Made by a program: the position numbers and the translations under genes. A stretch of 64,000 nucleotides of DNA from Clostridia bacterium (GTDB lineage Bacteria > Bacillota > Clostridia > UMGS1810). The notes under the pieces are model-generated. The model searched no databases and was not told the origin of the DNA. It was given only the letters and a program-made list of their open reading frames with translations. Location: the NCBI GenBank assembly GCA_017502845.1, contig JAFVUE010000004.1, positions 62,001 through 126,000 of the forward strand, read 5' to 3'. The stretch's first letter is position 1; each line of letters begins with the position of its first letter. Below, one piece after another: positions 12,853-54,270 of this stretch.

Positions 12853-12924
12853 GTAGGGGCCGGCCTCCCGGACGGTCCGCAAAAAAGGAGAAATAAACGG
12901 ATAGTCGGGGGCGCCTGTCCCTAC
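12853..12924. repeat. Inverted pair of GTAGGG-family palindromes
   Basis: One copy reads GTAGGGG...GGTCCGC on the plus strand (12853-12880) and a shorter one ends CTGTCCCTAC in the opposite sense (about 12905-12924), 24 bases apart. Both have GC-rich self-complementary cores. They belong to the dispersed family described at 14505-14774 and lie in the leader of the SGNH gene. Confidence 0.65.
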
Positions 12925-12982: not shown

Positions 12983-13780
12983 ATGGATATCAGTAAATTT
13001 TTTGATAAAAACGAAAAACCCCTTGATAATCTTCTTTGCGATGCAGGTTTTTCTGCAATATTTCGTAAAGTGGGTGTTGTTGGCGACAGTCTTTCTTCAG
13101 GGGAATTTGAAGTGCTTGATGCGAACGGTGTCAAGGCGTACCACGATTTTTATGAACATTCCTGGGGACAGTATATGGCTCGTGCCATGGGCAGTAAAGT
13201 TTTCAATTTCTCCCGTGGCGGTATGACTGCAAAATGGTTCTGCGATTCATACGGCGATACTTGCGGTGCATGGGAATACGAAAATATCTGTGATGCATAT
13301 ATTATTGCCCTCGGTTGCAATGATGTAAACTCTGTTGAACTCGGAACTGTTGACGATATTTCATACCCTGCAGGTTACGGCAATCCTGAAACATTTGCAG
13401 GATATATCGGTCAGATAATTCTCCGTCTTAAGTCAAAAGCACCCGATGCAAAGTTTTTCCTTGTTTCACAGCCAAAGGCATACTTTGACGATGAGAGAGA
13501 CGGCAAGATAGCAAAGTGGAAAAAAGATTCTGCGAAACTTTTACACGAGATTGCAGAGAGAGTGGGCAATGCTTATGTGATTGACCTTTATGAATATGCT
13601 CCCACATATGATGAAGAATTCAAGGATTCATTCTATCTTCTCGGTCATCTCAATCCTATGGGATATCTTTTTACTGCGAAGATGATGATGACATATATTG
13701 ACTACATAATCCGCCACAATATGAAAGATTTTACTGAAGTGGGACTTATAAATACGCCTTACAGGAATGCGAAATTATGA
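12983..13780 (+). CDS. SGNH/GDSL-family hydrolase
   Basis: 265 residues from ATG 12983 (AAAGGAG upstream). SGNH blocks: block I VGDSLSSGEFE with the nucleophilic Ser, a block II Gly in FSRGGM, block III GCNDVNS, and block V GHLNPMGY with the catalytic His (Asp replaced or displaced, as in several clades). No signal peptide, so an intracellular esterase/lipase-like enzyme; the substrate is unknown. The stop overlaps the start of the next gene (ATGA), so the two genes are translationally coupled. Confidence 0.83.
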   Translation: MDISKFFDKNEKPLDNLLCDAGFSAIFRKVGVVGDSLSSGEFEVLDANGVKAYHDFYEHSWGQYMARAMGSKVFNFSRGGMTAKWFCDSYGDTCGAWEYENICDAYIIALGCNDVNSVELGTVDDISYPAGYGNPETFAGYIGQIILRLKSKAPDAKFFLVSQPKAYFDDERDGKIAKWKKDSAKLLHEIAERVGNAYVIDLYEYAPTYDEEFKDSFYLLGHLNPMGYLFTAKMMMTYIDYIIRHNMKDFTEVGLINTPYRNAKL

Positions 13781-14430
13781 TGCTTACAGACAGACTTGAA
13801 AAGATTGCTGAATGTATAGATTGCAAAACTTTAGCAGATGTCGGCACGGACCACGGTTATATCCCAATCTATGCAGTTAAAAACGGCAAGTGCGAAAAGG
13901 CAATTGCCTGTGATGTGAATAAAGGTCCCCTTAAATCCGCAGACGAAAACATCTCTTCCTACGGTCTTTCGGCTAAAATCGAAACACGGCTTTCCGACGG
14001 ACTTGAGGGACTTGGAACAGGCGAGGCAGATACAATCGTGATAGCGGGTATGGGCGGATTTTTAATCCGTGATATATTGGAACGCGGCGCGGACCGACTG
14101 GACGATAATACCACTCTTCTTCTCCAACCGATGGTTGCCGTAGCGGAACTTCGAGAATATCTTGTCAAAAACGGATATAATATCTTTAACGAACGTCTTT
14201 CCCGTGAGGGAGAGAAATTCTATAATATCCTCTGTGTGAGAAAAGGGAAATGCGAGTATACAGAGAGGGATATTCTCCTCGGCAGAAATATAGAGGACGA
14301 TGAAAACTACGGCGATTATGTGAATTTTCACAGAGGCGTTGTCGAGAAGATAATCGACGGTCTTTCAAAATCCACAGGCAAAGAGGATGAGATTGCCGAA
14401 CTTAAACGAAAACTTGATATTATGAAATAA
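13777..14430 (+). CDS. trmK: tRNA (adenine-N1)-methyltransferase, TrmK family
   Basis: 217 residues. The start overlaps the SGNH gene stop by four bases. The N-terminal Rossmann domain shows the TrmK (YqfN) SAM motif LADVGTDHGYIPIYAV and the later DTIVIAGMGG motif, and the C-terminal half is the helical coiled-coil extension usual for this family. TrmK methylates N1 of A22 in bacterial tRNAs, using S-adenosylmethionine. In many Firmicutes the gene lies near rpoD and a Nif3-like gene; that context is absent here. Confidence 0.9.
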   Translation: MMLTDRLEKIAECIDCKTLADVGTDHGYIPIYAVKNGKCEKAIACDVNKGPLKSADENISSYGLSAKIETRLSDGLEGLGTGEADTIVIAGMGGFLIRDILERGADRLDDNTTLLLQPMVAVAELREYLVKNGYNIFNERLSREGEKFYNILCVRKGKCEYTERDILLGRNIEDDENYGDYVNFHRGVVEKIIDGLSKSTGKEDEIAELKRKLDIMK

Positions 14431-14468
14431 AAAAATCCTGAATACCATATGGTGTTCAGGATTTTTGT
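14431..14468 (+). terminator. Intrinsic terminator after trmK
   Basis: AAAATCCTGAA / TTCAGGATTTT stem with an inner ACCATATGGT palindrome and a TTTTTG tail. Confidence 0.88.
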
Positions 14469-14504: not shown

Positions 14505-14774
14505 ACGGGCGGATGTGGGCATCCGCCCCTACGATGTGCACTATCTGAGTTTATCCGTAGGGGAGGTTCACGAACCTCCCGATGTGTTTTGAGATCATCA
14601 ATAACGGTGCATCGTAAACGCTGCACCCTACGATGTGCACTATTTGCGTTTGCCCGTAGGGTAGGGATTTATCCCTACCGTTATTTAGTACAATCCTTTG
14701 TGGAACGGATTAATCCGTCCCCTACTCTTATATGGGGAGTGTTGCCGTAGGGGCGGATGCCCACATCCGCCCGT
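14505..14774. repeat. Array of six GTAGGG-family palindromes in three inverted pairs
   Basis: Copies lie at 14505-14532 (inverted), 14557-14581 (+), 14604-14631 (inverted), 14656-14681 (+), 14702-14725 (inverted) and 14747-14774 (+). Each copy starts GTAGGG, ends near CCCGT and folds on itself, but stems differ: GGGCGGATG/CATCCGCCC, GGGAGGTT/AACCTCCC, GGTGCA/TGCACC, GGTAGGGA/TCCCTACC, GGACGGATT/AATCCGTTCC. The first two pairs share a nearly identical spacer (CGATGTGCACTAT, then GTTT). No gene is visible in 14470-14879. The layout resembles the BIME arrays built of paired REP sequences in enterobacteria. Confidence 0.8.
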
Positions 14775-14879
14775 GATGTCAGGGAGATTCCCATGCTGTT
14801 TGCATACAACAAAAAATCCAATGCAGATAACCTGCATTGGATTTGTTTTTATATGTATTTATATTATCTGTTTGTGCAA

Positions 14880-15287
14880 TTAAGCAATGAATCCGTAAAT
14901 CTCTTCGGGAAGTTCGCTCTTATCAGCGCTTACAGAGATAGTGAATTTGATGTCGTTATCTTTGCAGATGCCGTCGAGTGCATTTACAAAATCAACAAGA
15001 CCGTTATCACTTGCTGCGATCTTCAGGATCGAATCAATATAGATGTGAGTGATGTCGTAGTTCTGGGACATAATGCCTTTGATAAATCCCTTGAATTCCA
15101 CGAAATCTGCGATACCGCCTTCTGCAACATCTACCAGACGAACGCCACCTTTAACATCAAAAATATGTCTGCCTTCTCTCGCAATGAAAACTACATTGCC
15201 GTGCTCTATATCAACTGCGTTATTAACGCTGTCAAGCATTGCTTTTGTTTTACCGCTACCTTTTTTACCTACGATTAACTTAACCAT
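14880..15287 (-). CDS. Small P-loop ATPase-like protein
   Basis: 135 residues from ATG 15287, with GGAGGAG six bases upstream. The protein opens with a Walker A motif, VGKKGSGKTK (residues 6-15), then shows a Walker B-like strand ITHIYIDSILK near residue 88. It is only the minimal core of a P-loop fold (RecA/TIR-like order of strands) with no further domain. Similar short P-loop proteins occur singly in Clostridia; I know of no function. It is divergent from ispG, each gene having its own promoter. Confidence 0.75.
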   Translation of the reverse strand: MVKLIVGKKGSGKTKAMLDSVNNAVDIEHGNVVFIAREGRHIFDVKGGVRLVDVAEGGIADFVEFKGFIKGIMSQNYDITHIYIDSILKIAASDNGLVDFVNALDGICKDNDIKFTISVSADKSELPEEIYGFIA

Positions 15288-15361
15288 TGGTCTCTCCTCC
15301 TTAAAAATGCTGTAATCGGTCAGAATTATATGTATTAAAGTAGTTATTCTTTCCTGATTCA

Positions 15362-15390
15362 ATTATACAATATTACTCTATAAAGTGCAA
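15362..15390 (-). promoter_or_regulatory. Promoter of the small P-loop gene
   Basis: Minus strand TTGCAC (15390-15385), 17 bases, TATAAT (15367-15362), 75 bases before the start codon. Confidence 0.7.
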
Positions 15391-30437: not shown

Positions 30438-30470
30438 AAAGAACCGCAGAGGTTATCCTCTGCGGTTTTT
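30438..30470 (+). terminator. Intrinsic terminator after the first SLH gene
   Basis: AACCGCAGAGG / CCTCTGCGGTT stem with TTAT loop then TTTTT; also usable in reverse by the gene ending at 30473. Confidence 0.88.
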
Positions 30471-30472
30471 CG

Positions 30473-30945
30473 TTATTCATTGTAAAAGCAATCGTCCTCC
30501 CAACGTATCGGATTTGTGTCGATGTATTCCCATATCATTTTGTAATCCTGCTCATTACGGATAATATGGTCGTGGAATGACCGTTGGAAGATAGGGTGCC
30601 CTATTTCCTTTGTAACCAATGTCTTGAGAGAACGGACAATACTTACGATGCTTGTAGGGGCCACATCGTCCCGTTAAGGGATATCAATAAATGAATATGA
30701 TTCGGCATTATCACATATTTATCAACAGATACATTCTCATATTTATTGTTTATATTTTTGATATACTTATCACAAACACGCCCATATTCGGACAATTCGT
30801 TTTTCGGGACGATGTGGGCATCGTCCCCTACGATTTTTCCGAGAATGTGTTTTTTATCCTTCACACATACCGTTATAAAATATGCACCGGGGGATGAATA
30901 ATCATATTCTTTCAACCGTGTAGGTTTCCGTTTGGGTAAATCCAT
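30473..30945 (-). pseudogene. REP-associated tyrosine transposase (Y1/HUH), frameshifted
   Basis: The N-terminal part (ATG 30945 to a stop at 30643) begins MDLPKRKPTRLKEYDYSS, then GAYFITVCVKDKKHILG, and carries the HUH motif MPNHIHLLI. The C-terminal part, in another frame (about 30664-30473), reads SLKTLVTKEIG...FQRSFHDHIIR...YIDTNP with the family's conserved tail. Together they make one TnpA_REP transposase of normal length (about 160 residues). The frame is lost inside a GTAGGG-family palindrome (30654-30674) that lacks seven bases, ACGATGC, of one arm; restoring them rejoins the frames exactly. A second complete palindrome (30805-30831) is translated as VGDDAHIVP. The ATG overlaps the end of uxaC. 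Confidence 0.88.
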
Positions 30946-30946
30946 A

Positions 30947-32338
30947 TTATATTCCGAGATATGTTTTTGCGTTATTGTAACAGATGCCTTTAACGATTTC
31001 TTCGAGTGCATCCCAATCTTCGGGGTATTCGCCGTTTTCTACCCATGTACCGATAAGGTTACACATAATTCGTCTGAAATACTCGTGTCTTGGGTATGAG
31101 AGGAAGCTTCTTGAGTCTGTGAGCATACCTACGAATTTGGAGAGCAATCCGAGGGATGCGAGATTTCTCATCTGCTCTTCCATGCCGTCTCTGTGGTCAA
31201 CGAACCACCATGCAGTACCGAACTGTATTTTAGATGGTGCTTCGCTGCTCTGGAAATTACCGAGCATTGTGCCGATAACAAAATTGTGAACGGGATTGAG
31301 TGTATAGAGAATTGTCTTGGGGAGTTTTCCGTCTTTGTCAAGAGCGTCTAAGAAGAGTGCAAGTTTTGCGGCAATCTTCTCGTCTGCAATTGAGTCAAAG
31401 CCCGTATCGGGACCAAGTTTTTCAAACATTCTGCTGTTGTTGTTTCTCTGTGCACCGATGTGGAGCTGCATTGTCCAGCCGAGTTCGTGGAATTTCTTTC
31501 CGAGTGCGAGCATAATCTTTGTCTTGTAGCAATCGCCCTCCTGTTCAGTAATCTTCTCTCCTGCCATAGCACGTGTAAAGATGCTGTCAATTTCTGCATC
31601 AGTTGCAACTTCAAACGGAACATATACAAAAGCGTGGTCGGAAATCTTACCACCGATTTCGTTAAAGAAATCTGCTCTCTTTATAAGTGCGGAGATAACG
31701 TCGTCAACATTTTTGATCTCAACTCCTGCCACTTCGCTGAGCTTTGCAATATACTCTGCAAAACCATCTGCAGTAATATTAACTGCTTTGTCGGGACGGT
31801 ATGTAGGCAGAACTCTTGTCTTGAATGTATCGTCCTTTTTGAGGGCAATGTGATACTCAAGTGAATCCGCAGGATCGTCTGTTGTGCAGACAACTTCAAC
31901 ATTGGATGATTCTATAAGTTTACGTGCAGACATACCTTTGAGTTTTTCTTTTGTCTCTTCCCAGATGGCGTCTGCTGTCTTTGAATTAAGGGGAGTTGTA
32001 ATACCGAAAAATCTCTGGAGTTCAAGGTGTGTCCAGTGATATAAGGGATTGCCTATGCAAAGGGGCATAACCTTTGCCCATGCATCAAACTTCTCTCTGT
32101 CAGTTGCATCGCCTGTCATGAATTTCTCGTCAAGACCTGATGAACGCATTGCTCTCCATTTGTAATGGTCGCCGTAGAGCCACACCTGTGTGATGTTCTC
32201 ATACTTTAAGTCCTCGTAAATCTCCTTGGGACTTAAATGGCAATGGTAGTCAATGATCGGCATTGATGAAGCATACTCGTGATAGAGTTTTTTTGCTGTT
32301 TCGTTAGAAAGGAGAAAATCCTTGTCCATAAATTTCAT
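30947..32338 (-). CDS. uxaC: Glucuronate isomerase
   Basis: 463 residues, standard length for UxaC, which isomerises D-glucuronate to fructuronate (and galacturonate to tagaturonate). Signatures: MPIIDYHCHLSPKEIYED with metal-binding HxH, MQLHIGAQRNNN, and the C-terminal SRSFLSYPRHEYFRRI. AAGGAGAG lies upstream of the ATG. It is the second gene of the THF-riboswitch transcript, 22 bases after the ECF gene; no other hexuronate genes (uxaA, uxaB, kdg) are in the window, which is unusual. Confidence 0.95.
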   Translation of the reverse strand: MKFMDKDFLLSNETAKKLYHEYASSMPIIDYHCHLSPKEIYEDLKYENITQVWLYGDHYKWRAMRSSGLDEKFMTGDATDREKFDAWAKVMPLCIGNPLYHWTHLELQRFFGITTPLNSKTADAIWEETKEKLKGMSARKLIESSNVEVVCTTDDPADSLEYHIALKKDDTFKTRVLPTYRPDKAVNITADGFAEYIAKLSEVAGVEIKNVDDVISALIKRADFFNEIGGKISDHAFVYVPFEVATDAEIDSIFTRAMAGEKITEQEGDCYKTKIMLALGKKFHELGWTMQLHIGAQRNNNSRMFEKLGPDTGFDSIADEKIAAKLALFLDALDKDGKLPKTILYTLNPVHNFVIGTMLGNFQSSEAPSKIQFGTAWWFVDHRDGMEEQMRNLASLGLLSKFVGMLTDSRSFLSYPRHEYFRRIMCNLIGTWVENGEYPEDWDALEEIVKGICYNNAKTYLGI

Positions 32339-33655: not shown

Positions 33656-33746
33656 GTAGGGAACGCATTAATGCGTTCCGTCTGTTTGCTTGAATTGCAT
33701 TATCTTACGAATAATAACACGGGACGTCGAGGACGCCGTCCCCTAC
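33656..33746. repeat. Inverted pair of GTAGGG-family palindromes
   Basis: A plus-sense copy at 33656-33681 (stem GGAACGCATT / AATGCGTTCC) and an inverted copy at 33719-33746 (stem GGGACG...CGTCCC, ending CCCCTAC). Both are in the leader of hydE, which is otherwise empty. Confidence 0.75.
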
Positions 33747-38699: not shown

Positions 38700-38789
38700 A
38701 CGGGTGAGGATGGAACCTCGCCCCTGCATATCGTTCTGTCTATACCATCATCATGGCTATCGTAGGGGCGGATGCCCACATCCGCCCGT
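38700..38789. repeat. Inverted pair of GTAGGG-family palindromes
   Basis: An inverted copy at 38700-38727 (stem GGTGAGG/CCTCGCC, ending CCCCTGC) and a plus copy at 38762-38789 (stem GGGCGGATG/CATCCGCCC) flank a 34-base spacer ending ATGGCTATC. The pair lies between tRNA-Arg and the end of glgP. Confidence 0.75.
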
Positions 38790-53755: not shown

Positions 53756-54270
53756 ACGTCTACGGAACGCCTCCCTTGTGCAAAGGGAGGTGTCTGCCAA
53801 CGGCAGACGGAGGGATTGTGTTTCGCACTATACGTGTGGCTATGAACAACTTCCTTTTCCACATTGTAGGGGCGATTTACGAATTGCCCGTACCTTTTGC
53901 TACGATTGTCACGGCCACTACCAATCTCTCCCTTTCCACACCGTAGGGCATGGTCTTGCTACTGCCGCTTTATATTTACTCATTATTATGGCTACGATAT
54001 GACCCTTTCATTATTACCTCTTCCTTAAAAACGTAGGGTTCGGCGGTTTCCGACGAACCGCCTTTTATATGTTTACTATCCCCATGTCTACGTAACTCCC
54101 TTTTCCTTTTCACATGTAGGGGACGATGCCCACATCGTCCCGCTATGTATGTCCACTCTCCCTACGGCTACAGAATGCCTTTTTCCTTTTACTTTCGTCT
54201 TCTTTGTTACGCTCATTCCCACGGCTACAAAGCTATTATCCTTCATGTTTTTTCGTCAACCTATGTTTAA
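53756..54270. repeat. Degenerate tandem array of palindrome-bearing units
   Basis: A 515-base gene-free stretch. A phrase like ACGGCTACRRA recurs at about 53758, 53838, 53912, 53989, 54085, 54163 and 54220, that is every 75-95 bases, usually followed by a pyrimidine-rich CTCCCTTTTCC run and then a GTAGGG-family palindrome (53866-53891, 53943-53968, 54033-54062, 54116-54142). The first unit carries instead a solo copy of the DUF559-cassette repeat (53769-53819). No reading frame of convincing design was found. Confidence 0.65.

Follow-up and report, generated by a model that had tools for sequence, protein, structure and literature searches.

The array at nucleotide positions 14506–14773 of the window (the whole 64,000 nt stretch of DNA from a gut Clostridia bacterium that was analyzed) raises the question of how adjacent palindromes can share outer bases and linkers when the hairpins themselves differ. 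The array consists of six palindromes, all of which open with GTAGGG, in the strand order −, +, −, +, −, + and with gaps of 21–24 bp. It is located between two convergent genes, beyond a terminator-like hairpin of each; the inverted repeat that follows the trmK-like gene is likely that gene's own terminator. All six elements display an unpaired 5′ GT[A/G]G followed by a palindrome, as in GTAG-type REPs, and such elements are repeated and dispersed, most copies in the window being outside of long open reading frames. The array is a BIME built of GTAG-type REP elements, i.e. its REPs alternate in orientation and its linkers recur. The original prediction of six palindromes in a BIME-like arrangement is thus borne out. 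An Rfam search of the window gave one tRNA only and no match to the array, which is therefore not covered by a known RNA family.

Some details of the prediction need correction. The pairs that share a spacer were described as head-to-head; these are tail-to-tail with the GTAG ends inward (in the nomenclature of PMC3733652). The spacer said to be common to the pairs, CGATGTGCACTAT, is present in the first two pairs but not in the third, which has another spacer; there are two copies of CGATGTGCACTAT in the window and one elsewhere in the genome. Conservation of the outer bases holds for the GTAGGG end, however the CCCGT end is found in two of the six only. The common part is CCG, and REP 5 ends in TCCA. 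The stems were also thought to be all distinct, but REPs 1 and 6 and the single REP at 38762–38788 are identical letter for letter, and for REPs 1, 3, 4 and 6 the sampled genome contains exact copies at other places. Table 1 lists the features.

Table 1. REP elements, spacers, genes and hairpins in the window.
Feature	Positions	Strand	Description
Single REP	12853..12878	+	class B-like
TrmK-type tRNA methyltransferase gene	13777..14430	+	upstream, convergent on array
18-bp inverted repeat	14431..14466	+	ends in T run; found by eye, not in terminator scan
REP 1	14506..14532	-	GTAGGGGCGGATGCCCACATCCGCCCG; class A, ATG/CAT core, 9 bp stem, 4-nt loop
Spacer 1	14533..14556		GATGTGCACTATCTGAGTTTATCC
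REP 2	14557..14581	+	GTAGGGGAGGTTCACGAACCTCCCG; 9+2+9, TTCACGAA core
REP 3	14605..14631	-	GTAGGGTGCAGCGTTTACGATGCACCG; class B, G.A mismatch, CG/CG, tetraloop
Spacer 2	14632..14655		GATGTGCACTATTTGCGTTTGCCC; homologous to spacer 1
REP 4	14656..14680	+	GTAGGGTAGGGATTTATCCCTACCG; 9+2+9, GATTTATC core
REP 5	14702..14725	-	GTAGGGGACGGATTAATCCGTTCC; GATTAATC core, one G.T pair
Spacer 3	14726..14746		TCTTATATGGGGAGTGTTGCC; not homologous to spacers 1 and 2
REP 6	14747..14773	+	same sequence as REP 1, opposite strand
Terminator-like hairpin of downstream gene	14814..14844	-	from scan
Downstream convergent gene	14880..15362	-	without Pfam match; conserved in most relatives searched
RAYT (Y1 transposase) pseudogene	30470..31011	-	class A; intact relatives in other genomes
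Internal REP b remnant of pseudogene	30654..30673	+	shorter than in relatives
Internal REP a of pseudogene	30805..30831	-	GTAGGGGACGATGCCCACATCGTCCCG; in frame (VGDDAHIVP)
Single REP	33656..33680	+	GCATTAATGC core; outside long ORFs
Single REP	33720..33746	-	class B; outside long ORFs
Single REP	38762..38788	+	class A, identical to REPs 1 and 6
Single REP	53866..53890	+	ATTTACGAAT core
Single REP	54033..54059	+	class B-like, longer loop
Single REP	54116..54142	+	class A

The window contains 12 GTAGG-headed hairpins, versus 0–5 for each of eight other five-base heads, most of which are commoner. The genome is one 72%-complete MAG of 820 kb, sampled by pattern search and by six stretches, in which assembly errors at repeats are possible. 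The pattern GTAGGG-N13-18-CCCG has 31 matches in this genome, on several contigs, versus 3 for the reversed pattern, and a wider pattern gives 31 versus 9. A chance origin of the stems was rejected on the basis of the head excess in the window, the 31 versus 3 genome matches and stem covariation.

Covariation was followed with patterns that left the outer stem free and did not require pairing at bp 3–5. Class A (ATG/CAT core) is represented by 23 distinct sequences; bp 2 is invariant, all 23 have a Watson-Crick pair at bp 4, where independent columns would give 8, and 21 are paired at bp 5 (12.3 expected). Class B, with its CG/CGA core and a nearly constant G.A mismatch, is represented by 35 distinct sequences, with pairing of bp 3 in 30 (13.5 expected), of bp 4 in 31 (11.0) and of bp 5 in all 35 (20.5). 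Variation is mainly in bp 3–5 and is nearly always compensated. Thus pairing is conserved and the letters are variable in a short middle stretch, whereas the stem base and the loop-proximal core are fixed per class, the fixed core being partly a product of the class definition. A third set consists of 9+2+9 hairpins with cores such as TTCACGAA, GATTTATC and GGGCTTGC. The array itself mixes at least four REP classes: A (REPs 1 and 6), TTCACGAA (REP 2), B (REP 3) and GATTTATC/GATTAATC (REPs 4 and 5).

The proposal that hairpin form and ends are kept but not stem letters is therefore correct with respect to compensated changes, however bp 1–2 are fixed and the loop-proximal part is class-specific. 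It is a matter of several REP classes with variation concentrated in bp 3–5, not of one class with free stems. Nor do the stems set the array apart from classical REPs, as had been suggested. In the available text of the sources cited here, the refined definition of REPs is a 5′ GTAG or GTGG and a palindrome of variable base composition (Nunvar 2013, PMC3686654), and most GTAG families display alternative complementary stem residues (Di Nocera 2013, PMC3733652). A variable palindrome is within that definition.

The two tandem units, 1 and 2, differ in their hairpins. Their flanks are identical at 13/17 positions and the CCCTAC-spacer-GTAGGG stretch at 32/36, while the hairpin interiors, of equal length, are identical at 3/18 and 6/16. 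Read on the minus strand, spacer 1 is the 5′ flank of REP 1, TAGTGCACATC. Among 58 GTAGGG-headed elements, 5′ flank identity and hairpin identity are uncorrelated (r = 0.04), and of the 45 pairs of elements whose 5′ flanks share 75% identity or more, 25 have hairpins less than 50% identical; these pairs are not independent, many coming from one cluster on contig C1. The flank TAGTGCRCATY has 11 copies in the genome, all followed within one base by GTAGGG (one element is decayed), and these copies carry at least six different hairpins. The 3′ flanks track the hairpins more often than the 5′ flanks, thus the exchanged unit may reach past the 3′ end. The copies, when compared, suggest an exchange of entire hairpins within DNA that stayed unchanged around them, and in this one genome the flank, spacer and hairpin data point to whole-hairpin replacement at the REP borders as the simplest reading.

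We consider it probable, at about 0.6, that the array is a GTAG-REP BIME of at least four RAYT classes which arose by unit duplication and then by exchange of whole hairpins for dispersed REPs. It appears doubtful that this is an ordinary REP array whose stems changed where they stand, through point mutation with the second arm then corrected on the template of the first (quasipalindrome correction), and with no exchange of whole hairpins. Arm-to-arm correction would produce the within-class covariation at bp 3–5, and near-class variants with the same loop do exist, e.g. GACGATG/GCGGATG. However the interiors of units 1 and 2 are at chance identity while their spacers are 89% identical, and the loops and the class-specific G.A mismatch change along with the stem. 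In addition, REP 3 has its exact copy at L190:19467-19493 and REP 4 at L190:4517-4541 of the sampled genome, with unrelated and different flanks respectively.

Independent insertion of different REPs beside a preferred target would mean that TAGTGCRCATY is a target rather than a piece of an older element. The junction at GTAG is sharp and position −1 is a pyrimidine in 57/58 elements, as expected for a recognized cutting site, however none of the 11 flank copies is empty and the spacer similarity continues to the opposite REP, which makes this improbable. Less probable still is selection of the hairpins as RNA elements (terminators or mRNA 3′ stabilizers) of the two convergent genes. The location between convergent genes is that of many REPs (in the available text of PMC3733652), and hairpins 2 and 4 have weak scores as terminator-like sites. 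Against this, each gene has its own hairpin and T tract ahead of the array, and the orthologous gene has no adjacent REPs in two same-genus genomes. Its neighboring genes differ in these two genomes, thus no empty site can be compared.

RAYT chemistry, i.e. the cutting and joining of single-stranded REPs (PMC8266576), is the natural candidate and is probably responsible for the exchange of hairpins. The window contains a class A RAYT pseudogene whose frame is lost next to internal REP b. As it carries a class A REP, class A of the array has an associated RAYT. It is the sole recognizable RAYT of this type in the 72%-complete genome, and none was found there for the non-A classes; their mobilizer is therefore assumed, and RAYTs of these classes would once have been active in this lineage. 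An intact 248-aa Y1 transposase at G000:C9:3708-4043 was rejected as the mobilizer, as it belongs to a longer type and there is no hairpin with a GTAGG head within 1.5 kb of it.

Intact relatives of the pseudogene were analyzed in other genomes. The sample is 80 RAYT genes chosen by similarity to one class A gene, mostly from ruminant-gut Clostridia MAGs; a search for relatives at the order level returned the same 16 genomes as at the family level. A modeled intact relative (pLDDT 83.8) displays the HUH-Y1 fold of E. coli TnpA-REP and matches PDB 4er8 (E 8.8e-7, TM 0.63) as well as the IS608/ISDra2 transposases. Intact relatives score at or above the Pfam cut-off for Y1_Tnp. The best NCBIfam family is REP_Tyr_transpos, with 63–70 bits in five relatives; as this is below the 80-bit equivalog cut-off, “RAYT” is meant here broadly, as in publications on subclass 2.4. 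Subclass 2.4 was recognized by NH[IFV]H and WQ motifs, a REP with a GGG/CCC base and a REP inside the gene, and the relatives show the consensus MPNHIH and IWQ, the GGG/CCC base and internal REPs.

Hairpin a (+ strand, nt ~115–140) is present in 71 of the 80 genes, hairpin b (− strand, nt ~280–305) in 76, and both in 67. Most of the related RAYT genes (L037-L054, L076-L155) display two inverted, class-matched REPs at fixed positions of the coding sequence. Identity of a with b is 0.89 within a gene as compared with 0.53 for different genes, and none of 20,000 permutations gave more than 0.61; the permutation is blind to ancestry, so part of the within-gene match is class inheritance. Third codon positions within the hairpins are 0.77–0.88 identical within a class versus 0.44–0.47 in the remaining gene, which shows DNA-level constraint or homogenization inside the coding region. 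In the predicted structure the hairpin-encoded peptides form loops at residues 40–48 and 93–101. Helix alphaC (residues 103–121), directly after b, is associated with hairpin class (partial r 0.53, permutation maximum 0.12), versus a partial r of 0.13 or less for other segments. REPs flanking 29 RAYT loci in other genomes resemble the locus's own internal REPs (0.62 versus 0.47). In related genomes the commonest REP class is often without a matching RAYT among those found.

In the proposed mechanism, RAYT (TnpA-REP) transposases of the subclass 2.4 type would fall into at least four recognition classes, to which the REPs of the array belong. Judging from the association of helix and class, and by analogy with other TnpA-REPs, where pairing, GTAG and loop matter and the stem letters matter less (PMC8266576, available text), the enzyme may recognize the unpaired GTAG foot, the G-C stem base and the class-specific loop-proximal core through the helix that follows the HUH strand. 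Pairing alone would be required at bp 3–5, so compensated drift could occur there. The array would have grown by tandem duplication of a ~99 bp unit, flank-REP-spacer-REP. Whole hairpins, bounded by the GTAG foot and the 3′ CCG, would later have been exchanged for REP copies dispersed in the genome, most likely by single-strand cutting and joining by RAYT at the REP borders. REP cleavage assays in vitro are established (PMC8266576). Arrays with a kept linker and another hairpin would document replacements directly, with borders that are defined. The association of a short helix with the core of the hairpin suggests that recognition of a DNA hairpin by its transposase follows a readable code.

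A more speculative and rather unlikely extension is that the RAYT gene holds the matched pair of substrate hairpins in frame as a protected master copy. A change in the helix would lead to rewriting of both, which would then be pasted over the array REPs, and a class would spread by replacement and not by new insertion.

Pseudomonas REPINs differ from the array in spacing, hairpin size and RAYT subclass. In both, the unit that is repeated is an inverted REP doublet (2011, PMC3116915, available text). With the GTAG superfamily (PMC3733652) the array shares the GTAG foot, the short palindrome, alternating dimers and clusters, alternative stem residues and intergenic location. The families described in the available part of that catalogue are from Proteobacteria, Cyanobacteria, Chloroflexi and the PVC group and none is from Firmicutes, whereas the present elements are from a Clostridia-type genome, with several structural classes in one array; a literature search for Firmicutes REPs gave unrelated papers only. 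E. coli BIMEs also have tandem REP doublets in alternating orientation with linkers between them, but here one linker is found with at least six hairpin types (compared with the available text of PMC3686654). Different REP classes at the same locus of related genomes are known as the REP orthoswitch (Nunvar 2013, PMC3686654). In the available text this was inferred at RAYT flanks and ascribed to mutation, and the mechanism of a joint class change of a RAYT and its REPs is stated there as unknown; here the different classes are seen between tandem units of one array, and the whole hairpin interior is unrelated.

The subclass 2.4 REPtrons (PMC6006769, 2018) share the NHIH HUH motif, the WQ motif, three G-C pairs at the stem base and in-frame REPs. 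REPs inside subclass 2.4 RAYT genes are already published in that source and are not claimed as new, and REP class switching at a RAYT locus is described in PMC3686654. Unlike what the available text of PMC6006769 describes, the sampled Clostridia genes mostly have two inverted REPs at fixed places with matching class. No earlier report of the fixed matched pair or of the helix-hairpin association was found in the REP/RAYT papers cited here.

Three relatives of the GATTTATC class (L098, L125 and L142) have a matched pair at b plus a third site after helix alphaC, with the GTAG ends inward. L098 also retains a class B hairpin at site a, an arrangement that is possibly an intermediate of class switching. 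L153, from a Zoogloeaceae MAG record (a betaproteobacterium name), is a Clostridia-like RAYT with an internal REP, due to either horizontal transfer or misbinning.

Dense REP clusters are present at G000:C1:66000-95000 (L188, L189), where a long recurring 5′ flank, aaacatatgtagtgcgcatc, precedes many different hairpins. A further genome, G003, has mixed doublets of GCGGATG and GTCGATG hairpins, ~7 or 16 bp apart, in about a dozen places, i.e. a stable two-stem REP pair.
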